A stretch of DNA of 64,000 nt, from contig JAGBCB010000033.1 of assembly GCA_017938145.1 (NCBI GenBank), positions 1 to 64,000 of the forward strand. The letters run 5' to 3'. This DNA is from Lachnospiraceae bacterium (GTDB taxonomy: Bacteria > Bacillota > Clostridia > Lachnospirales > Lachnospiraceae). Numbering within the stretch: the stretch's first letter is position 1; each line of letters starts with the position of its first letter. A program made the translations under genes and the position numbers. The notes under the pieces were generated by a model. The model had not been told where the DNA came from. It did no database searches and worked only from the letters and a program-made list of their open reading frames with translations. Shown here one piece after another: positions 11,477 to 64,000 of this stretch.

Positions 11477-13090
11477 TTAGCCCTGAAGTAAAGATAATAC
11501 ACCCTGCGTAGCCTGATTAGCCTGTGCTAACATAGACTGACCAGCCTGCTGTAAAATGTTGTACTTAGACATGGTTACCATTTCAGCTGCCATATCTACG
11601 TCACGGATACCGGATTCAGCTGCCTGCAGGTTTTCTGCTGTGTTGTCTAAGTTAGAAATTGTATGCTCAAGTCTGTTCTGAACCGCACCGAGTAAGGAAC
11701 GCTGCTTGGATACCTTTGCAATAGCTTCATCAATCTTACCTAAACTATCGGAAGCACCTTTCTGTGTAGAAAGGTCTACATTAGAATCGTTTACACCAAG
11801 TGCATTTGCGCTCATATCGTCAATGGAGAAGCTCATTGTCTGACCTTCGTTTGCGCCAACCTGAAGAACAATACCCTTACCGCCGGACTGAACACCATAT
11901 TTTGCCTGACCGAGGAATGCGTCTGTATCACCAAGTCCTGTACCACCTGCCAAAGTAAGCTTTGCAGTCACATTGCTATCAGTAATAAACAATGTGTCCG
12001 GTTCATCCGGAGCTGCACTATTTAAAGTAACATCCATGCTGAGACCTGCTTCTGCAAGAATAGCTTCAATATCTTCTTCTGCATATTCCTTACCGGACTG
12101 AAGACTTAAGGTATATGTGCCCGCCTTAGTTAATGCACCTGTAGCAGCATATGTAGCCGGTGTTTCAATTTCACACTTTTCATTGCCTTCTGTTGCTGTA
12201 AAGTCAAGATTAATTGTTACATTTGTATCTTTACCGTACTTGTTGGATTCAATTGTAATTTTATTAGCCCCTACAAAGTTACCTGCTTTACCAATAGCCA
12301 CTTCATTGGAAACACCTCTTGCGCCTACTTCTACAGCGGTACCTGTAATATCAGCGGCTGTCAGAGCACCATAATATAAATTCAACTCTAATTCTACCGG
12401 CGCATTGGTTGCTGTGGAATCTTCCTGCTTAGCATTTGCAATCAACTGGTCGATTTCGGACTGGGTATAAGTATAATCTTTCTTCAAATTTAAAGTTAAA
12501 ACTTTACCTGTCTTATCCCAAATTGCAGATTCACCACCTGCTGTTGCATTTGCTGCAACGTTAATAGAAACACCTGCAATATTAGAAGTTACAAAGCCCT
12601 TTAATCCTGCATCATAAATGCCATACTTAGGACCTGCGCTGGTTACACCTGCAGTAGCTGCACTAAGGGAACCATCTAATAACTTCATTGTATTGAATTC
12701 TGTATCAGAGGCGATTCTGTCTAATTCTTCCTGTAACTGTTCGATTTCGTCCTGGATGTTGCCACGGTCGTCATCTGTTTCTGTACCGTTGGCTGCCTGA
12801 ACTGCTAATTCTCTCATTCTCTGGAGAATGGAATGGGACTCATTTAATGCACCTTCTGCGGTCTGAATCATGGAGATACCGTCGGATGCGTTTGTGGAAG
12901 CCTGGTCGAGACCACGAATCTGGCTTCTCATTTTTTCGGAAATTGCTAAACCTGCTGCGTCGTCTGCCGCACGGTTAATTCTGTAACCGGAAGAGAGCTT
13001 TTCTGTGCTCTTTGCTAATGCGGAAGTAGAGATGCCAAGCTGTCTGTTGGCGTTCATAGCTGTCATGTTGTGCTGTACGATCATTGCCAT
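11477..13090 (-). CDS. fliC: Flagellin (copy 1)
   Basis: 537 residues. The conserved D0/D1 ends are clear: [37 protein letters not shown] and [11 protein letters not shown] at the N-terminus, and [32 protein letters not shown] and SMLAQANQ at the C-terminus. The middle (about 140-430) is a Ser/Thr-rich, surface-exposed D2/D3-type domain. Such residues are typical O-glycosylation targets, which fits the adjacent glycan operon. The gene has its own sigma-28-type promoter, a leader with three CsrA-like sites, an AAGGAGG ribosome binding site and a strong terminator, so it is monocistronic. It is a close paralogue of the flagellin at 14888-16498, diverged mainly in the centre. Confidence 0.97.
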
Positions 13091-14887: not shown

Positions 14888-16498
14888 TTAGCCTAACAGG
14901 GAGAGAACGCCCTGGTTAGCCTGGTTAGCCTGAGCCAGCATGGACTGAGCAGCCTGCTGAAGGATGTTGTTCTTGGAGAACTGAACCATTTCAGCAGCCA
15001 TATCAACATCACGAATGCCGGATTCAGCCGCCTGAAGGTTTTCAGCTGTGTTGTCCAGGTTGGAGATGGTATGCTCAAGTCTGTTCTGAACAGCACCAAG
15101 TAAGGATCTCTGCTTGGAAACAGTTGCGATACCGGCATCAATCTTTTCGATGGAATTCTGAGCACCACTCTGAGTGGATACGTTAACGCTTGCACCGGAA
15201 ACGCCAAGCGCTGCTGCGCTCATGTCACCAATACCAAAATTGATAGTCTGGCCATAGTTTGCACCTACCTGAAGTTCAACGCCCTTGCCGCTTGCTGCAG
15301 AGTCATAATTTCTCTCGTTAAGGAACGCATCATCATCACCAAGACCCTTACCGTCTTTTAATTCTAACTCAATTGCCTTTGTTGCAGTGTCAGCAACCAT
15401 GAAGGAATCTGGAGTATCAGGCGCACTGGTCTTAATATCTACGGTTGCAGAGAAACCAGCTTCTGCTAACAGCTTTTCAATATCCTTTTCAGAATATTCC
15501 TTACCTGTAGCCAACTTTAATTCATACTCTGCTGTGTTACCTATACCACCTGCTGCACTGTAAGAAGCCGCCTTGGAAATCTTGCATTCTTCTTCGCCCG
15601 CATTAGCATCAAAAGAAATCTTAATCTTAACATCATTATCGGCACCATACTTGTTTGCAGTAATGTTAATCTTTGCATCAGCGCCTCCCAAAACAACACC
15701 CGAGAGATCCTGTTCGCCTGTGCTAGACTTCACACCTGCTTCTGTTGCTGTACCAGCAAGCGTTCCACCAACAATTGCGCCACCCTTTAACTTAACAGTT
15801 ACATTAGCCGGAGTGTGCTCTGCATCGCTGTCTTCCTGCTTTGCATTCTTGATTAAAGCATCAATTTCAGACTGAGTATAGCTTGTACCAGCTGCAAGGT
15901 TTAATGTAAGAGTTGTTCCTTCCTTATCCCAAACTGCAGACTCGCCACCAACGGTTGCAGAACCGGTAGCATTAACAGTAACACTCTTTACATCAGAAGT
16001 TACAAACGCCTGAAGCTTTTTGTCATAAATACCAAACTTAGGACCCGCTGCACTTGCATTGCTGCCGCCGCCTAAAGAACCGTCTAACAGCTTCATGGTG
16101 TTGAATTCTGTTGTTTCAGCGATTCTGTCAAGCTCGTCCTGTAACTGGCTGATTTCATCCTGGATGTTGCCACGATCTTCATCAGTTTCAGTACCGTTAG
16201 CTGCCTGAATGGTTAATTCACGCATTCTCTGAAGAATGCTGTGGGATTCCTGAAGTGCACCTTCTGCAGTCTGGATCATGGAGATACCATCCTGAGCGTT
16301 TGTGGAAGCCTGGTTAAGACCACGGATCTGGCTTCTCATCTTTTCGGAAATAGCTAAACCTGCTGCATCATCTGCTGCGCGGTTAATTCTGTAACCGGAA
16401 GATAACTTTTCAGTGCTCTTTGCGAGTGCGTTTGTGCTGATACCTAACTGTCTGTTAGTGTTCATCGCTGTCATGTTGTGCTGTACGATCATTGCCAT
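14888..16498 (-). CDS. fliC: Flagellin (copy 2)
   Basis: 536 residues, with almost the same first ~140 and last ~100 residues as copy 1, including [33 protein letters not shown] and SMLAQANQ. The central D2/D3-like region keeps the same order of motifs ([39 protein letters not shown]) but is substantially diverged, and the C-terminus is one residue shorter. It has its own sigma-28-type promoter and a long, structured leader. Both copies are intact, so either or both may be part of the filament. Sequence alone does not show which is dominant. Confidence 0.97.
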
Positions 16499-55556: not shown

Positions 55557-56729
55557 CTATGCTTCTGTAAAAGAAGCCGGTTCTGTTTCTTTCTTGTTGT
55601 TTCGGATAACAGCAAGAAGAATGCCCGCCAAAATCAATAACACAGCGGCCATTAGACCTATCTTACCAACCTTTTCGAATCCGGTCAAGCACCAACCTGC
55701 GATTTCTTCAAGCATTGGCATAACAAATTCCGGAAGTTCCGTACCTGTGCCTCCCTCTGCCATCATCTTGGAAAGCTCAGAATTCAGTAAATTCAGGGCA
55801 ATTCCCGGAACGGCCTTCGCAACGGCAAAAAAGCCTCCACCGATAATCAGTGTAAAAGCACCGGCAGTAAAGAATCCGGACGGACGGAACCAGTGACACA
55901 CCAGTAAGAGCAGCAGGAAAAAGGCTGTAACCCCAAGTAAAATATATCCGGCCAGACTAATATCCTTGCAAAGTAAGGTTCTGTCAGTCAGACTGTATCC
56001 GTATTTGGTTTCCAGTTCCTTCAGCTCCTTATACTCCGGCATATCATAGATGCTGTTAAATGCTTTGGATACTTCCTGCTCCAATTCTGTCACTTCCGTA
56101 TCCACCATCGGAATTACTTCCGTATCGAAAACATTTCTTGCTTCTTCCATGGCAATATTGGTTGCTTCCTCCTTTGCCTTGGTCATAATTTCCTGTCTCT
56201 CGCTCTCAGACAGTTTGTCGTAAGTCTCTCCGTATTCCTTTTTTACTTCCTCTTCCAGAGACTCTTCAACGGTTGCTTTTATTTCTTCTGTTACGGTAGT
56301 TTCAAAATACTCGTTTAACATTGTCTTTAAAAAGTTTTTCTGATGGGACAAATCAACCTGATATTCTTTGCCCTGTACAATGGCATGATAAACATCAGAA
56401 AGAATGGTCTCTGCCTGCTGCTTTGGTAAAATCTCCTTTGCATCCAATTCCGGCAAAGCAGCTCCGTTACCCATGCCTTCCGGCATACCTTCGGCAAGCC
56501 CCTCTTCCAGTCCCTGCTCCAAGCCTTCAATTATCAAATTGTATCCCCAATCTACGCCTCCGTTTCTTACGAAGGACTGATACAGTTCTTCCTCTCTGTC
56601 CGGAGCAATCACCGATTCCAAGGTAAATACTGCACTTGCTCCTGCTCCGCCTGCAAATATAAACGGAAACAAAATTATACTGAATATAACCGCTATCACA
56701 ATTGCAATTGCACTGGTCTTCTTTTTCAT
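55557..56729 (-). CDS. Hypothetical membrane protein with extracellular helical domain
   Basis: 390 residues. One membrane helix lies at 7-28 (AIAIVIAVIFSIILFPFIFAGG). A large acidic helical domain of about 210 residues follows (EGLEQGLEEGLAEGMPEGMG, EEIKATVEESLEEEVKKEYGETYDKLSESERQEI). Then come three more membrane helices (about 255-275, 285-305 and 350-375) and a short tail. No family recognised. It begins 2 bases after... the fusion kinase stop region is immediately upstream (1-base gap), so it may be the last cotranscribed product of the signalling operon. Confidence 0.65.
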   Translation of the reverse strand: MKKKTSAIAIVIAVIFSIILFPFIFAGGAGASAVFTLESVIAPDREEELYQSFVRNGGVDWGYNLIIEGLEQGLEEGLAEGMPEGMGNGAALPELDAKEILPKQQAETILSDVYHAIVQGKEYQVDLSHQKNFLKTMLNEYFETTVTEEIKATVEESLEEEVKKEYGETYDKLSESERQEIMTKAKEEATNIAMEEARNVFDTEVIPMVDTEVTELEQEVSKAFNSIYDMPEYKELKELETKYGYSLTDRTLLCKDISLAGYILLGVTAFFLLLLLVCHWFRPSGFFTAGAFTLIIGGGFFAVAKAVPGIALNLLNSELSKMMAEGGTGTELPEFVMPMLEEIAGWCLTGFEKVGKIGLMAAVLLILAGILLAVIRNNKKETEPASFTEA

Positions 56730-56730
56730 T

Positions 56731-59406
56731 TTACTCGTCCTTGCCTTTCTTTATGTATAAGACACCCATTGCACCCAAACCACAGTTACTGGAAATAGTA
56801 GCAGATGCCTTCTGAAATTCAATCCGCTCAAATTTCTGATATTTCAAAACTTCTTCCTTAAACTCCTTCAACTGCTTAGAGCTGCAGCCTGCATAGGTAA
56901 TAAACAATAATCTTGTGTCGATATTCTTTTTACCCTTAAAGTTTTGGCGGATATAGTCTGTATATGCAGTCTTCATGGAACCGCATTTTACTCCGGCAAA
57001 AGAGAATTTACTCTTTTTCAAATAGATAACCGGATGCAGATTAAATACCTCGCAGATTCGTTTTACATTATTCGAGATTTTACCGTTCCGGTACAAAGAT
57101 TCTGCCGAAGGAACAATGAAACTGGTCGCAATCTTATTCTTCATTACTTCCAGATCTTTCACAATTTCATCCACGGTCAGTCCTCTGCTTACCAAATGGG
57201 CAGCCCGCATTACCATAAGACCAAGGCCACTGGATAAATGCCCGGAATCCACTACAATAACATTATCAAAGCCCTGGGCAGCTGCCATAGCAACCTTATA
57301 TCCATTACCGACCTTTTGTGCTGTAGTTACATGAATTACTTTTTCTCCGACACCAAGCGCATTCGAGAAAAACGTTTCAAATTCCTCCACCGATGCGGTC
57401 TGGGACTTCGCCTTGCCTTCATCTGTAGCAAGATATTCCAGTAAATTATCCGATGTAATTTCGTTAATATCACAGAAACGGCCCTTGTCGGTATGTACAT
57501 AACAATACATCGTACGGATATCGTAATGGTCCAAAAATTCCTTTGGTAAATCACAAACACAATCGGTAGTAATTTGAATCTTTTTTCGTTTTGCGCCTGT
57601 AATATTTTGAATCAGTTCCGTCTCTTCCTGGGTTTCCACAGCATTATATTCTACCAATTCCTTCGGAAGGTATTTTAACAACACTGCTTCCAGTAGGGAA
57701 CTGCTGATTGGCTTTGCGAGGTAATTTTGGAAGCCCTTTTCCTGATAAATCTGCTCAGCTCCTGCTGTAACATTTGCTGTCAAAGCAATCACCGGAACTT
57801 CGCGGCATAAGCCGTTCTCCTGCTGACGTACACGGTTTAATGTTTCTACGCCATCCATTTCCGGCATCATATGGTCCATAAAAATTACGTTATAAAAATG
57901 CTGTTTCGTAAGTTCCAGACATTCCTTGCCGCTTTTTGCAAGATCTACCTGAATTTTTGTTTCACGTAACAGTTTTTTTGCTACCAGCAGATTCATCTCG
58001 TTATCGTCTACAACCAGCACATGCGCATCGGGAGCTTCAAAAATCTGCTTATATTTCTTTCTTTTATGTGTAGAACCTCTGGTCATGAAATCCATATGTC
58101 CCATTGGATTTTCATTAACAATGTCCTGTTCAATCTGGATAGTAAACACAGAACCCTTCTGATAAATACTGTCAACGGTGATTTTACCACCCATCATCTC
58201 TACCAGTTGGTGGGAAATGGACAAACCGAGACCTGTACCTTCAATTCCTGCATTGGTTCCTTCATCTACACGCTGGAAGGACTGGAACAGTCTGTCCATG
58301 TCTTCCTTTCGGATGCCGATACCGGAGTCACGAATGGAAATAGTTAACAGAATTTTGTTATTGTCCTTCATTTCACTACGGGCAGATAAAGAAATAAAAC
58401 CTTTTTGTGTATATTTTACCGCATTAGACAACAAATTTATAACTACCTGCTTAATACGAACTTCATCACCATACAGCATCGATGGAATTTCCGGAGAAAT
58501 ATCCAGTTTAAATTCCAACTTCTTTTCATGAGCTCGAATCCAGATTAAATTTACCAGTTCACTGAACATGGCACCGGTTTCGTACTGAATCGGAACAATT
58601 TCCATTTTACCGGACTCGATTTTTGACATGTCTAAAATATCATTAATCAGAGCCAGCAGCATTTTACTTGCATCCTGGATATGAATGGCATTTTCCGCTA
58701 TCTCTTCTGAAATATCTTCTCTGAGAATCATTTCATTTAAACCGATAATAGTATTAATCGGTGTGCGGATTTCATGGCTCATATTGGCAAAGAAGTTATT
58801 TCTAGTTCTTGACAAACGCTCCAGTTCATGGTTTTGTTCCACAACCCGCTGCTGCTCTGCTTCGTATACTTTGTTTTGGAACCGGACAATCAGACCGATA
58901 ATCAAAGTAACAATCAGAATACTAAAAATAATATCTTCATAGGAAGTCCACTCGTCCTTCAACGGAACTACCGCCCTTGGATGATGATACGAATAAACAT
59001 AGCAAAACAACACGCTGGACAAGGATATCAACAACATGGTCCAAAACATTTTACCCCGGATTAACAAAAATACAATAAACAATCCAAGAACGAACCAGGC
59101 ACTGATGCCACTTTTTACACCACCACTGGTAAAAAAAGCAAGCGGAAGAATGACGCAGTTTAACAGGAAAATCAGAATGCAACTGCATAACTCTACTTTT
59201 TTTGTCTTTTTTGCAATAAACATTAATGCACAGGCAGCAACACCACCAAGTAATGTAACCAATACTACAATAAACGGAAGATTGGAAAACATGGAAGTAA
59301 AACTTCCCGCAAAGGCTGCCATCATACCTCCGAAGGCTGCCACCTGGAATATTTTTAATTCAAACGGGCTATCCAGATCATAAAAATACTTTGATAATTT
59401 ACGCAT
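56731..59406 (-). CDS. Hybrid histidine kinase-receiver protein fused to a DegV domain
   Basis: About 891 residues from the second ATG (59406), 8 bases after GGAGG; the ATG at 59412 is too close to that site. Domains: five or more membrane helices (about 20-180), dimerisation/phosphotransfer domain with FFANMSHEIRTPINTIIG (His near 211), ATPase domain with NLLSNAVKYT and GTGLGLSISHQLVE, receiver domain with LVVDDNEMNL and VIFMDHMMPEMDG, and finally about 280 residues (606-891) of DegV type: IQITTDCVCDLPKEF, SQTASVEEFETFF, IVVDSGHLSSGLGLMVMRAA and ESLYRNGKISNN. DegV proteins bind single fatty acids (FakB). The receiver is followed by DegV in place of the HPt domain seen in its upstream paralogue. 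It overlaps the preceding gene by 8 bases. Confidence 0.92.
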   Translation of the reverse strand: MRKLSKYFYDLDSPFELKIFQVAAFGGMMAAFAGSFTSMFSNLPFIVVLVTLLGGVAACALMFIAKKTKKVELCSCILIFLLNCVILPLAFFTSGGVKSGISAWFVLGLFIVFLLIRGKMFWTMLLISLSSVLFCYVYSYHHPRAVVPLKDEWTSYEDIIFSILIVTLIIGLIVRFQNKVYEAEQQRVVEQNHELERLSRTRNNFFANMSHEIRTPINTIIGLNEMILREDISEEIAENAIHIQDASKMLLALINDILDMSKIESGKMEIVPIQYETGAMFSELVNLIWIRAHEKKLEFKLDISPEIPSMLYGDEVRIKQVVINLLSNAVKYTQKGFISLSARSEMKDNNKILLTISIRDSGIGIRKEDMDRLFQSFQRVDEGTNAGIEGTGLGLSISHQLVEMMGGKITVDSIYQKGSVFTIQIEQDIVNENPMGHMDFMTRGSTHKRKKYKQIFEAPDAHVLVVDDNEMNLLVAKKLLRETKIQVDLAKSGKECLELTKQHFYNVIFMDHMMPEMDGVETLNRVRQQENGLCREVPVIALTANVTAGAEQIYQEKGFQNYLAKPISSSLLEAVLLKYLPKELVEYNAVETQEETELIQNITGAKRKKIQITTDCVCDLPKEFLDHYDIRTMYCYVHTDKGRFCDINEITSDNLLEYLATDEGKAKSQTASVEEFETFFSNALGVGEKVIHVTTAQKVGNGYKVAMAAAQGFDNVIVVDSGHLSSGLGLMVMRAAHLVSRGLTVDEIVKDLEVMKNKIATSFIVPSAESLYRNGKISNNVKRICEVFNLHPVIYLKKSKFSFAGVKCGSMKTAYTDYIRQNFKGKKNIDTRLLFITYAGCSSKQLKEFKEEVLKYQKFERIEFQKASATISSNCGLGAMGVLYIKKGKDE

Positions 59407-62134
59407 CTGCATTTCCTCCTTCTTCCAAAAGCTTTGTCACTTCCTCTGTCGCACTCAGGAAGTCAAACCGGCTTACCTGCTCACTTATCGGCTTTAATAA
59501 GTCTTTCAGATTCTTTCCCTTGAAGCAGTATTTTGATAACTCCTGTATCTTGGCATCCACTCCGCCTTTTTCAAAGGTATTAAGAAGCTCTGTCAATTCT
59601 TGCAAATGAAAAGCAAAGCGTTCTTCCGTAATTTCTTCCACAACAATTTGTTCTTCCGGCTCCTCTGCTTTTGTATCTACCGGACCCTTTTCAAATCTAT
59701 CGCGGATAGTTTCTCCGCCGATTTCTAATAACACTTCCTCGTATTCCTGCATAACTTCCCTGTGATGTGCCTGTATAAAAGAAATATTTCCTTCCTTGCC
59801 GGCCATCTCCAGTTCCTTTGCCATTTCACCAAGATGCGTAGCACCGATGCCAATGGATGTGCTCTTTAATGCATGCACAAGGATAGTATAATTTTTCCAG
59901 TCCTCTGCCTTATATTTTTCCCTGATTTCGCGGATTTTCTGTAAACCGGAATTTAAATATACCTGCAGAATTTCTTTATAATCCTCTTCGTTTCCGCCAC
60001 AATACTGGATACCCCGGCGACGGTCAATGCGGGACTCTTCTTCACTTTCTACAATTTCCGGTTCCTGCTCATAAGGTTCTGTTGCATCATCCATCCGGAT
60101 AATCTTATCTTCCGGAATATACTTTCTAAGCACTCTTTCTAAATGAGACATTTCGATTGGTTTTGCCACATATTCCTGGAAACCTTCCTCCAAGAACATC
60201 TCTCTCGCACCACCGATAGCGTTGGCTGTTAATGCTATAATCGGTACATTCTGGAAATAGGAACCTGCCTTTGCCCGAATCTTGTGCGCAGTTTCCACAC
60301 CATCCATCTCCGGCATCATGTGGTCCATAAAAATGATATCATATCGGGAACTATCCAGCTTTTCCAAACATTCCTTACCGCTGGACGCAACAAACACCTT
60401 AATTTTGTATGGACGGAGTAATCCTTCCACCACTCTAAGATTCATCAGATTATCATCTACTACTAAAACAGTTGCCTCAGGAGCAATAAACTTCTTCTCC
60501 TGATAATGGCTTCCATCCAGACGCTGCAGGGAATAATCGCCGTTTAATACTGTTGCGATAGACAAAACATAGAACGGCTTGTACAGGGACTTAATATTTC
60601 CTCCCGCTTTTATGCTGTTTTCCCTGTTCTGCAAAAGGATAATTACCATCTGATCCGAAATTTCATCAAAGTAATGCTTATCCTCCATGTACTCGGAAGT
60701 GGTAATAAACGCATGGGTAAAAATCTCTTTTTCCATACGGCGCTTGAATTCACCCAAATTACGGCACTGATGATAACGTACCTCCAGACTCTCTACCATA
60801 TGGCGTATATTACTCATGTAATCATCATGGATTTCCGTGAATTCATACTTTTCAGTATTTATGTATGCAATAATGTTGATACTCTCCGCATTTCGTACAG
60901 CAACCATCGGACGGTCATCCACTACCTTTTGCGGAATTACAAACTGGAACTCACTTCCCTTTCCAAAGGTACTTCTTACGCTGATGAAACCACCCATCTT
61001 ACTGATGATTCGTTTCGAAATGGCAAGGCCGATACCAATACCGCCTTCCTGACGGTTTCTCTTGGTGTCCACCTGGTTAAAGCTGGAAAACAGCTTCTCT
61101 AAGTTCTCATCTTCGATTCCGATACCGGTATCTTTTACTTTTACCGAAAGGTTAACACCATACTCTTCCTTTCTCGCAGAAAAAACAAGAGTAATACATC
61201 CTGCCTCCGTAAATTTAATTGCATTGTTCACAAAGCTCAAAATAACACGACGAATTTTCTGCTCATCTCCCAACAGAGTATAAGGAATCTTTGCATCACA
61301 ATCCACAATCAATTCCAGATTCTTTGAATCCTTTTGGGCAATTGCCATATTAATTACGTCGTTAATTGTGGAAGTTAAATTATACGGTTCTTCCACCAAT
61401 TCCATTTTTCCGTATTCCAATTCGGAAAAATCCAAAACGTCACTGATTAAAGATAAGAGATTTCTGCCTGCTGCCTGAATATTAAAGGTGTTTTCCCTTA
61501 CCTCTTCCGGAATATCTTCTCTAAGAATCATCTCGCTCATACCGCAAACCGTATTTACCGGTGTACGGATTTCATGGGAAATATTCGCCATGAAGTCCGT
61601 CTTGCTTCGCTCTGCTACCTTTAATTCTTCGATTACTTCCTGCATTTCCCGGTTCATTTCACCATTTCGTTTTACCAGATAATGGGCACCGATTTCTGCT
61701 ATAAAAACAGAAGCCAGCTGCACAAACAAACGGTACTTGTCCATTCCTGTTTCCAGAGGAATAGACTGCTTAAACAATAAATGATACAGAAAAATTATCA
61801 GGCAAAATCCCATTTCCAAATAGACCAAACGCGGAACACCAAGAAGACCAAGCAAAATAACCACCGTAGTGAAGGTAATCATGATACTAGGGAAGGAATC
61901 CGACATAAAGGCATATAATGTGAAAGTAATTAACGTAGAGCCGGAAAATAAAAATGCTCTGGTCCGATAATCGTTCCATTCTTTGATATATGCCATCCAC
62001 GAAATCAGCATGATACCGATAATCGTAGGAGTAATCCATGCCGGCCACTGTAAAACGGTAGCAGCCACAGACATTGCCAGTGTATATGCAGAATATGCAA
62101 TTACTATGATTCTTTCTACTTTTTTTGTATTCAC
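59399..62134 (-). CDS. Hybrid sensor histidine kinase with receiver and HPt domains
   Basis: About 911 residues from a GTG at 62134, 8 bases after AAGGAGG; a GTG at 62161 would lie upstream of that site and overlap the preceding gene. Membrane helices cover about 10-155. The phosphotransfer site is DFMANISHEIRTPVNTVCG, the ATPase boxes are SFVNNAIKFTEAG and GIGIGLAISKRI, an inactive-looking receiver-like stretch follows, then a receiver with LVVDDNLMNL and IIFMDHMMPEMDG, and a C-terminal HPt with LVHALKSTSIGIG. The layout supports a full phosphorelay. It is a paralogue of the DegV-fused kinase in membrane, kinase and receiver parts. Confidence 0.93.
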   Translation of the reverse strand: MNTKKVERIIVIAYSAYTLAMSVAATVLQWPAWITPTIIGIMLISWMAYIKEWNDYRTRAFLFSGSTLITFTLYAFMSDSFPSIMITFTTVVILLGLLGVPRLVYLEMGFCLIIFLYHLLFKQSIPLETGMDKYRLFVQLASVFIAEIGAHYLVKRNGEMNREMQEVIEELKVAERSKTDFMANISHEIRTPVNTVCGMSEMILREDIPEEVRENTFNIQAAGRNLLSLISDVLDFSELEYGKMELVEEPYNLTSTINDVINMAIAQKDSKNLELIVDCDAKIPYTLLGDEQKIRRVILSFVNNAIKFTEAGCITLVFSARKEEYGVNLSVKVKDTGIGIEDENLEKLFSSFNQVDTKRNRQEGGIGIGLAISKRIISKMGGFISVRSTFGKGSEFQFVIPQKVVDDRPMVAVRNAESINIIAYINTEKYEFTEIHDDYMSNIRHMVESLEVRYHQCRNLGEFKRRMEKEIFTHAFITTSEYMEDKHYFDEISDQMVIILLQNRENSIKAGGNIKSLYKPFYVLSIATVLNGDYSLQRLDGSHYQEKKFIAPEATVLVVDDNLMNLRVVEGLLRPYKIKVFVASSGKECLEKLDSSRYDIIFMDHMMPEMDGVETAHKIRAKAGSYFQNVPIIALTANAIGGAREMFLEEGFQEYVAKPIEMSHLERVLRKYIPEDKIIRMDDATEPYEQEPEIVESEEESRIDRRRGIQYCGGNEEDYKEILQVYLNSGLQKIREIREKYKAEDWKNYTILVHALKSTSIGIGATHLGEMAKELEMAGKEGNISFIQAHHREVMQEYEEVLLEIGGETIRDRFEKGPVDTKAEEPEEQIVVEEITEERFAFHLQELTELLNTFEKGGVDAKIQELSKYCFKGKNLKDLLKPISEQVSRFDFLSATEEVTKLLEEGGNADA

Positions 62135-62147
62135 AGTAAATCCCTCC

Positions 62148-63218
62148 TTATAAAAGTTCACCCAGTAAGTCCTTTATCTCCTGCTCCAAACTAGTAAATA
62201 CATCTGTAATCAGCGGATCAAACTGCGTTCCCCTGCCTTCTTTTAAGGTTTGCATTATTTTATATACCGGCCGAATCGGTTCTTTGTAACAGCGTTCCTC
62301 ATATAAAGCATCAAACACATCTGCCAGTGCCATGATTCTTGCACAAAGCGGAATATCCTCTCCCTTTAGTCCAATCGGATATCCGGTACCGTCCCACCGC
62401 TCGTGATGATACATCGCAATATCCTCAGCAATTTTGACATAAGCCGGATCTTCCACACCGCCGATAATTTCATTAATAATTTCCCGGCCGTACACCGTGT
62501 GCAGCTTCATCGCATTATATTCTTCTTCTGTTAATCTGCCCGGTTTCCGTAATATAGCATCGGAAATCTTAATTTTTCCCACATCATGCAATGGTGCTGC
62601 TTTATAGACATTCATAATATAATCTTCTGTCAGAATGTCCGAATAAATATTCCTGGCTTTTAATTCCGAAGCAATCATTTTCACATAAGTCATAGTATTC
62701 TTTACATGTTTTCCGGTACTGTTATCACGGGTTTCAATCAGCGTAGCCATTCCCATGATGACCTGCTCCTGAATCTGGCTGATACGTCTTGTTCTTGCCG
62801 TAATAATTCTGGTCTGCTCCTCCACCATATGTTCCAGATTTGCACGGTATATTTCCAGTTCCAGCGTCTTTTTTACACGGCTCATAAGTACATCCGGAAT
62901 AAATGGTTTTGCCACAAAGTCTACAGCCCCGGTAGCAAAGCAACGGGTTTCTGTTTCCGGATCATTATCAGCTGTCAGAAAGATAACCGGAACATGAGAA
63001 AATCTTTCCATTCGCTGAACTTCTTCCAGCACCTGGAATCCGTCCATTTCCGGCATGTTAATATCCAATAAAATAAGATCCGGACAGTTATTTTCTAAAT
63101 ACTTTAGTGCTACCTTTCCCGAATTTGCTGCAGCAATCCGGTATTCCTTTCCCAGTATTTTCTGTGCCAGTGCTAAGTTAGAAGTATCATCATCTACAAC
63201 TAAAATAACCTGATTCAT
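62148..63218 (-). CDS. Response regulator with HD-GYP phosphodiesterase domain
   Basis: 356 residues. Receiver domain: VVDDDTSNL, LILLDINMPEMDGF (phospho-Asp near 53), LTADND and AKPF. A coiled-coil linker is followed by the HD-GYP domain (about 155-356) with GKHVKNT, LHDVGKI and MYHHERWDGTGYPIGLKGEDIPLCARIMALADVFDAL. All catalytic metal ligands look intact, so it is expected to hydrolyse cyclic di-GMP. It is a likely output for the hybrid kinases downstream in the same operon. Confidence 0.94.
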   Translation of the reverse strand: MNQVILVVDDDTSNLALAQKILGKEYRIAAANSGKVALKYLENNCPDLILLDINMPEMDGFQVLEEVQRMERFSHVPVIFLTADNDPETETRCFATGAVDFVAKPFIPDVLMSRVKKTLELEIYRANLEHMVEEQTRIITARTRRISQIQEQVIMGMATLIETRDNSTGKHVKNTMTYVKMIASELKARNIYSDILTEDYIMNVYKAAPLHDVGKIKISDAILRKPGRLTEEEYNAMKLHTVYGREIINEIIGGVEDPAYVKIAEDIAMYHHERWDGTGYPIGLKGEDIPLCARIMALADVFDALYEERCYKEPIRPVYKIMQTLKEGRGTQFDPLITDVFTSLEQEIKDLLGELL

Positions 63219-63239: not shown

Positions 63240-64000
63240 TTACTCCTCTATCGTATCTACAATAAAAAGTGCCAGTTCTTCTGCCAAATCCTTATCTTCT
63301 TTACGTATCCACTCTCCATTTTTGTTTTGTTCCACAATTCTTACAATCGGTCGGGTTGGATTGTCCGCATTCTGCCGAAGAACAATTGCTTTTTTTCCCG
63401 TATTCAGACTCACCATGGAACCGGTAGGATAAGTTGCTACGGAACCCAGAAAAATTTTTACCAATTCAGCATCAAATTTGGTACCCGCATTTTTTGTTAT
63501 TTCATCCAATGCCTCATGTACCTTTTTTCTTTCTTCCAAATTACCGTAAACCATATTATCGAAAGTATCACAAATAGCCACAAGACGAACCTGTGGCTTA
63601 ATTTTGTCTTTCGACATATGAAAAGGATATCCGCTGCGGTCCAACCGCTCATGGTGATATAAAATTATCTCTCTGGATACGGACGGAATCCAGTCCTGCT
63701 GTTCCACCTCTATATATCCGTATACCACATGCCGCTTGATTTCCTTTTGAATTTTTTCTTCCTGCTCTGACAGAATTAATCCCTGATATTTTTCCTTCAC
63801 ATTCGTAAAACCAATATCGTGGAGTAATGCACCCATTGCAATTTCTTTTGTCTCTGTCTGTGTATAACCGGCGCGGACCGCAATCAAAATTGCAAGTGCC
63901 GCCACGCTTAACGTATGTTCATATAAACTTTTGGAATGATTTCTTACATTGGAAATTGTATAAATCACCTCGTCCTGCAGAAGTACACCTTCCATAACTT
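63240..64000 (-). CDS. HD-GYP domain protein with an altered HD motif (5' end outside the window)
   Basis: At least 251 residues; the frame is open to the window edge, so the ATG at 63995 may be internal. The HD-GYP domain shows LYEHTLSVAALAI, LLHDIGFTNV and LYHHERLDRSGYPFHMSKDKIKPQVRLVAICDTFDNM. The usual HD-x-GK is HDIGF here, and DGTGYP is DRSGYP, so metal binding or specificity may differ. A ~60-residue beta-rich tail (GSMVSLNTGKKAIVLRQNADNPTRPIVRIV) is the common C-terminal extension. The downstream response regulator gene follows after 21 bases. Confidence 0.85.
   Translation of the reverse strand, partial: VMEGVLLQDEVIYTISNVRNHSKSLYEHTLSVAALAILIAVRAGYTQTETKEIAMGALLHDIGFTNVKEKYQGLILSEQEEKIQKEIKRHVVYGYIEVEQQDWIPSVSREIILYHHERLDRSGYPFHMSKDKIKPQVRLVAICDTFDNMVYGNLEERKKVHEALDEITKNAGTKFDAELVKIFLGSVATYPTGSMVSLNTGKKAIVLRQNADNPTRPIVRIVEQNKNGEWIRKEDKDLAEELALFIVDTIEE

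Follow-up and report, generated by a model that had tools for sequence, protein, structure and literature searches.

The closest described relatives of the domain studied here are FakB1 and FakB2 of Staphylococcus aureus, DegV proteins which hold a fatty acid and present it to the kinase FakA. According to PMC8892158, Thr62, Ser95, Ser171 and His270 of FakB1 form a network round the carboxylate of the fatty acid, Arg173 is required for catalysis and Arg205 for the binding of FakA (both arginines are called completely conserved), and FakB lets go of its ligand at the membrane via the opening of a lid. That a DegV protein can stand outside the usual Fak role is precedented by FakB4 of Streptococcus pyogenes, which is reported (PMC10138225) not to serve the incorporation of exogenous fatty acids; FakB4 is, however, free-standing and not part of a kinase. 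In this article we analyse a 64,000-nucleotide stretch of the genome of a Lachnospiraceae bacterium (contig JAGBCB010000033.1, positions 1 to 64,000; hereafter the window), in which a complete DegV domain forms the C-terminal part of a membrane hybrid histidine kinase. We propose, with a probability of about one half, that this FakB-derived domain has been uncoupled from FakA and senses an acyl ligand for a phosphorelay of two kinases, the output of which would concern cyclic di-GMP (c-di-GMP) and motility.

Among described kinases, the tripartite proteins of the BarA and ArcB type share with the window's protein the order of HisKA, HATPase and receiver domains, and the NCBIfam models of BarA and ArcB match it below their cut-offs; but the DegV domain stands here in the place of their histidine phosphotransfer (HPt) domain, which is found in the neighbouring protein or, in a second form of about 1,130 amino acids, after DegV. 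In Vibrio the hybrid kinases LuxN and LuxQ lack an HPt domain and feed one HPt protein, LuxU. A hybrid kinase without HPt feeding an HPt domain on another protein is also what we propose for this locus, although here the HPt domain belongs to another membrane hybrid kinase, the product of the adjacent gene, and may be carried by either of the two. A further system for comparison is SaeRS of S. aureus; to our knowledge SaeS has no DegV domain. In PMC5539427 free fatty acids are described as inhibiting this two-component system, a precedent for kinase activity that follows the Fak-controlled fatty-acid pool, and the effect of the FA kinase on SaeRS is called indirect.

The DegV kinase of the window is encoded by an uninterrupted frame with the following features:

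56731..59412, minus strand: gene of the hybrid histidine kinase-receiver-DegV protein, 893 amino acids, a single open frame with four Pfam domains above the cut-offs
58864..59313, minus strand: N-terminal membrane region, residues 34-183, about 4-6 hydrophobic spans (Kyte-Doolittle segments 34-52, 70-99, 100-131 and 156-183)
58609..58803, minus strand: HisKA domain, residues 204-268, phospho-acceptor His213 (Pfam E 3e-17)
58126..58470, minus strand: HATPase_c domain, residues 315-429 (Pfam E 1.8e-26), with N-box and G-box motifs
57685..58020, minus strand: receiver domain (Response_reg), residues 465-576, phospho-acceptor Asp513 (Pfam E 8.2e-23)
56746..57582, minus strand: DegV domain, residues 611-889 (Pfam E 5.7e-41, profile positions 1-280 of 280)

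The original prediction, made from the letters of the window, had placed this gene at 56731..59406; the end was right, but the first ATG lies at 59412 and 59406 is the second one. Its description of a membrane hybrid kinase with a receiver and a complete C-terminal DegV domain was borne out by Pfam, all four DegV motifs that it had named were found in the translation, and the similarity to DegV does not fade past residue ~600 but extends to residue 889. The NCBIfam model TIGR00762 matched the domain with 152.9 bits (cut-off 99.7), and its best solved relatives by sequence were DegV/FakB proteins, namely 2dt8 (E 1.1e-20) and 4x9x (E 2.5e-18), the latter presumably FakB2. The N-terminal 185 residues are strongly hydrophobic on the Kyte-Doolittle scale; Pfam families matched the membrane region in at most two of 39 homologues each, and no consistent family was found there. 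His213 together with Asp469, Asp470, Asp513 and Lys567 was invariant in the 39-row alignment, and with a HisKA domain bearing its histidine, a HATPase_c domain and a receiver bearing its aspartate the protein is a hybrid histidine kinase. No Hpt domain was matched in it by Pfam, so it is not a tripartite kinase with a C-terminal HPt.

Such a domain is carried by the protein encoded upstream, as had been predicted for this neighbour:

59399..62161, minus strand: partner histidine kinase-receiver-HPt protein, 920 amino acids, its gene overlapping that of the DegV kinase by 14 bases (Pfam HisKA, HATPase_c, Response_reg and Hpt)
59777..59974, minus strand: HPt domain of the partner, residues 730-795, with His763 in a HALKS motif (Pfam E 3.6e-6)

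The partner is thus tripartite, with a C-terminal HPt in the same chain. Across homologous loci the pair as a rule possesses one HPt domain, on one or the other protein and never on both. We surveyed 131 distinct loci with a hidden Markov model (HMM) built from these loci and counted 104 which had an intact adjacent histidine kinase-receiver partner; the 27 excluded loci had no intact partner directly upstream (12), a partner off the contig (5) or no kinase, receiver and DegV in one frame (10). The HPt domain was found in the partner only at 94 loci, in the DegV protein only at six, in both at none and in neither at four. Pfam gave the same picture for 39 homologues of about 900 amino acids, the window's protein included, which were picked as complete from 56 loci: all four domains (HisKA, HATPase_c, receiver and DegV) were present in 39/39 and Hpt in 0/39, while 31 of 35 partners had Hpt at E 0.01 or better (32 of 35 with our own HMM), the partners of the other four being cut or split. 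In the second DegV form (1,117-1,152 amino acids; seven proteins, scanned apart) Hpt followed DegV in 7/7 and was found in 0/6 partners, the seventh partner lying off the contig. In three of the four pairs without HPt (L067, L071 and L074; L and G numbers are our own handles) the cluster contains an HPt gene of its own, confirmed by Pfam for L067 and L071; in the L074 gene, which is cut by the contig end, Pfam found a receiver and FleQ but no Hpt. The fourth, L173, is a tandem duplicate: two DegV kinases stand behind one histidine kinase-receiver-HPt protein, and one copy keeps His at position 266 of the DegV domain. The two genes of a pair are closely packed, with a median overlap of 4 bases and 81 of 94 pairs at most 20 bases apart.

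Since the HPt domain resides on one or the other protein but never on both, the two proteins appear to be tied together, and most simply the two kinases would constitute one relay sharing one HPt; such an exchange between neighbours would be natural evidence for two hybrid kinases acting as one. The DegV kinase has a kinase and a receiver but no HPt, and we infer from this that its phosphate would leave through the HPt of the upstream-encoded partner.

The residues of the FakB ligand site and of the FakA-docking face were compared in 126 fused DegV domains, a few of them from incomplete frames, and 48 free-standing ones, which were mostly top scorers with the fused query and included seven from the window's genome and three of the Asn type. 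Positions are given in FakB2 numbering as assigned by alignment. Three replacements in the window's domain were located in this way:

57079..57081, minus strand: Lys778, at the place of the catalytic or latch arginine (Arg170 of FakB2, Arg173 of FakB1)
56983..56985, minus strand: Cys810, at the place of the FakA-docking arginine (Arg202 of FakB2, Arg205 of FakB1)
56785..56787, minus strand: Asn876, at the place of the carboxylate-binding histidine of FakB (His266 of FakB2)

At positions 61, 93, 170, 202 and 266 the window's domain carries Ser670, Gly702, Lys778, Cys810 and Asn876, so that the Thr-Ser-His carboxylate network of FakB is missing (Ser670, Gly702, Asn876) and so are both conserved arginines (Lys778, Cys810). 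What it has in common with FakB1 and FakB2 is a full-length DegV domain, the sequence relationship to solved DegV/FakB structures and Gly268; it differs from them in its fusion to a kinase and in these residues, and differences at these positions recur across the fused group. Arg202 was retained in a single fused domain (1/126, against 44/48 free-standing). Position 266 was Asn in 119 fused domains, His in 2 and another residue in 5, whereas the free-standing set had His in 43, Asn in 3 and another residue or a gap in 2. Position 170 was Arg in 58, Lys in 25 and another residue in 43 fused domains (free-standing: Arg 46, Lys 2); position 93 was Ser in 82, Gly in 32 and another residue in 12 (free-standing: Ser 48). 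Position 61, the least certain of the five on account of an indel in the pairwise alignment to the solved relatives, was Ser in 96, Ala in 17, Thr in 9 and another residue in 4 (free-standing: Thr 44, Ser 4). A lysine which the pairwise alignment had put at the place of Thr61 was dropped, the multiple alignments placing Ser670 there. All five canonical residues, with Thr or Ser allowed at 61, occurred together in 0/126 fused and 42/48 free-standing domains. Ser870 is a further residue of the fused type.

Weighted column entropy was used to rank the 276 columns of each set, the free-standing one being represented by 45 rows with the three Asn-type domains left out. Position 202 came 265th among fused and 11th among free-standing domains; in the fused set Gly268 ranked 1st, Asn266 28th, position 61 77th, position 93 114th and position 170 185th. 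The FakA-docking face thus seems to be under little constraint, whereas the ligand site is in part conserved, with one residue changed. By these sequence features the fused DegV domain is not a FakB, and the suggestion that it binds a fatty acid as FakB does and presents it to FakA was not supported, both arginines, the histidine and the serine being replaced. The window's genome possesses FakA (PF13684, 305.6 bits; G000:C29) besides the complete DegV domain. It has eight DegV matches, of which the kinase fusion alone stands in a long frame, next to seven others. The Pfam model of the FakA-like C-terminus gave weak matches to free DegV proteins of this genome (G000:C64, C23 and C68), which suggests a fold relationship between the FakA C-terminus and FakB.

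In a tree of 82 DegV domains (52 fused and 30 other, including two PDB references; thinned at 58% identity) all 52 fused domains and three free-standing ones formed one clade with a support of 100/100; the bootstrap of the tree had not settled. Among the 48, Asn266 occurs in these three alone (L089, L090 and L104). All are located in histidine kinase-receiver-HPt clusters, where the domains of L089 and L090 are encoded immediately next to the kinase-receiver-HPt gene; L104 is probably a fused gene split by a frameshift. L089 and L090 branch first, and their adjoining kinase is 40-41% identical to the window's partner over 766 and 808 residues. Since these first-branching domains are encoded beside the kinase, the tree, rooted at its midpoint, suggests that the domain entered the relay as a free protein and that the fusion came afterwards.

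The architecture proved to be widespread, as had been surmised for Lachnospiraceae. A DegV domain within a kinase or receiver frame was counted by hand in at least 38 of 250 genomes of the family (one per genus); this tally and those at order and phylum level score at most 8-10 candidates per genome at strict E-values and are lower bounds. Among the 38 are fragments at contig edges (L059 and L088), a gene split into two frames (L087), a DegV-first protein (L067) and a HATPase-DegV protein without recognisable HisKA or receiver (L083). An order-level sample of 295 genomes added one genome outside the family with the fusion, in a frame of about 920 amino acids (G483; L195 lies inside the fused clade); among the matches listed for a phylum-level sample of 299 genomes, DegV outside the family stood in short frames, and in G595, also outside the family, it was found in a 580-residue frame in which no kinase was found. 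A scan of a genome collection with a profile made from nine DegV domains yielded 508 stretches, 488 of which encode a relative of the DegV query; 80 were kept and gave 75 further proteins, 74 of them fused and L104 in two frames. By their titles most carriers belong to the Lachnospiraceae or to other gut Clostridia, while some drafts are titled Bacillus sp. or Bacteroides sp.; one carrier is the isolate Schaedlerella arabinosiphila DSM 106076 (L126). Beyond the Pfam scans, architectures and neighbours were taken from our own open-frame calls and from searches with pieces of the window's proteins.

Two variants stand apart. In L067 (5431-8304) the same parts occur in another order, with DegV N-terminal, ahead of the membrane region, kinase and receiver. 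In L083 (7790-10378) and L085 (7951-10563) histidine kinase-DegV frames form a long branch of their own in the tree; neither a receiver nor a same-strand partner directly upstream was found for them, and Pfam matched only HATPase and DegV in L083. The L083 and L085 forms perhaps reflect yet another change of role.

In the open-access literature, searched at the level of titles and abstract openings, no description of a DegV-kinase fusion was found, consistent with the statement of the original prediction that no described function was known to it; the parts are known, but in the literature searched there is no account of the way they are combined, of the HPt exchange or of the residue switch.

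As for the output of the proposed relay, the genes next to the pair are informative. In the window the partner gene is followed upstream by two genes:

62148..63218, minus strand: receiver-HD-GYP protein, 356 amino acids, candidate output of the relay, its gene overlapping that of the partner by 14 bases (Pfam Response_reg and HD_5)
63240..64000, minus strand: HD-domain protein, 354 amino acids, reaching beyond the window as far as contig position 64304, with the full frame seen in L094 (Pfam HD_5 within the window), 21 bases upstream of the receiver-HD-GYP gene

In the 94 ordinary pairs the gene upstream of the partner encodes a receiver-HD-GYP or HD-GYP protein in 45, a single receiver in 19, a receiver-GGDEF protein in 2 (L069 and L082) and other kinds in 18; nine of these 18 are chemotaxis receptors (MCP; Pfam), with CheW beyond them in both loci tested. 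The receiver-HD-GYP proteins of the loci mostly keep HDxGK (43/48) and the GYP motif (46/48). Flagellin was present in 34 of the 38 fusion-bearing genomes and in 95 of the 212 others (Fisher p 2e-7, not corrected for kinship). These neighbours and the flagellin link point to a possible output in c-di-GMP and motility. The window itself has two Flagellin_N matches (12668-13078 and 16076-16486, minus strand), and two more occur elsewhere in the genome.

Taken together, these observations are consistent with a model in which the DegV hybrid kinase and the upstream-encoded histidine kinase-receiver-HPt protein form one phosphorelay. The DegV domain would descend from a FakB-like carrier which gave up FakA docking and became a signalling domain; its inherited pocket may hold an acyl-chain ligand, and the loading or release of this ligand, or contact with the membrane, might set the balance between kinase and phosphatase activity. 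A membrane-anchored kinase could keep the domain near the bilayer. The relay would end on adjacent receiver proteins (HD-GYP here, CheY-like or diguanylate cyclase elsewhere) and through them might affect c-di-GMP or motility. We infer that DegV is an input, because the FakB features that serve FakA are lost while FakA and seven further DegV genes are still present in the genome for that task, because the first-branching relatives are separate proteins encoded beside the kinase, and because its position varies, DegV being found C-terminally, ahead of an HPt and, in one case, N-terminally. It is plausible that the domain senses an acyl chain or some other lipid, and the fused carrier domain has probably turned into a lipid sensor. 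In a more specific version the carrier would have been captured once by the phosphorelay, as a separate subunit which was later fused, would have lost its FakA face and would now act as an intracellular lipid gauge for c-di-GMP or chemotaxis behaviour in gut Lachnospiraceae; its ligand would perhaps be not a free fatty acid but a neutral lipid, since the charge-balancing His became Asn. This version is possible, but we hold it tentatively, at rather less than even odds.

If the model is true, the behaviour of a large family of gut bacteria would be coupled directly to the state of the lipids in the cell via a carrier turned sensor, and we would have a case of a carrier which lost its enzyme partner yet kept part of its pocket; in annotation, Asn266 and the loss of Arg202 could separate sensors from carriers.

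Several points speak against this model. In seven of the 100 pairs with one HPt (L057, L068, L072, L076, L114, L127 and L156) an extra frame with an HPt was found nearby, at most three genes upstream or two downstream, so that some loci have a source of HPt besides the pair; the HPt model was, moreover, made from the same loci that were surveyed, although Pfam agrees with it on the subsets scanned. The window's domain is without the binding serine (Gly702), and in the fused set Ser93 is kept in 82/126 and Thr or Ser at 61 in 105/126, so that conservation of the carboxylate site is uneven and the domain might hold no ligand. Among the upstream neighbours of the 94 pairs nine are of other or untested kinds, eight lie on the opposite strand and two beyond the contig. 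Finally, the flagellin link ignores both kinship and the wealth of kinases in motile genomes.

Among the alternatives, the one that survives best keeps a ligand but changes its nature: the pocket would bind a neutral or bulkier lipid, such as a monoacylglycerol, a fatty alcohol or amide, or a lysolipid, and the asparagine and the loss of the arginines would be adaptations to it. A site which is changed yet constrained agrees with this (Asn in 119/126, Ser for Thr at position 61 in 96/126, and Ser870), but position 93 varies within the group, which makes more than one class of ligand possible; we regard this alternative as doubtful. It is unlikely that the DegV domain binds nothing and serves as a dimerisation or docking module which replaced the HPt domain and holds both kinases together. 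DegV indeed occupies the place of the partner's HPt, and among the positions of the five FakB residues, free variation is seen at two (ranks 185 and 265 of 276) and moderate variation at one more (rank 114); however, Gly268 is invariant, Asn266 still ranks 28th of the 276 columns, and the first-branching free relatives stand beside a histidine kinase-receiver-HPt protein, which needs no replacement for its HPt. The possibility that phosphorylation of the receiver gates the loading of the DegV domain with fatty acid and its presentation to FakA, and hence phospholipid synthesis, must be set lower still, and we consider it very unlikely, because the residues concerned are lost: the FakA-binding arginine in 125/126, the catalytic arginine in 68/126 and the histidine in 124/126 fused domains. 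The placement of DegV after the receiver, like that of output domains, and the FakA in the genome would favour it, but the HPt domain follows DegV in six of the 104 intact pairs, so that DegV is not always terminal, and in L067 it even precedes the membrane region. An assembly or frameshift error that joined two genes near 57590, conceivable in a draft genome of 78% completeness, is rejected as having practically no chance, the junction being in frame and the fusion recurring in at least 38 of the 250 sampled genera and in isolates such as S. arabinosiphila DSM 106076.

Returning to the surroundings of the pair, the DegV kinase gene is followed at 55557-56729 on the minus strand by a gene for a 390-amino-acid protein which starts one base after the stop of the kinase; hydrophobic stretches were recognized in it by eye, and no Pfam or NCBIfam family matched it. 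A DUF3881 gene comes after it, further downstream of the DegV kinase. In L095 a 290-amino-acid frame directly follows the DegV-kinase homologue, in place of the 390-amino-acid protein. About 2 kb beyond the end of the window, at 66162-67923, there are frames whose first residues resemble ParB and ParA by eye, on account of which the relay locus may be situated near the replication origin.

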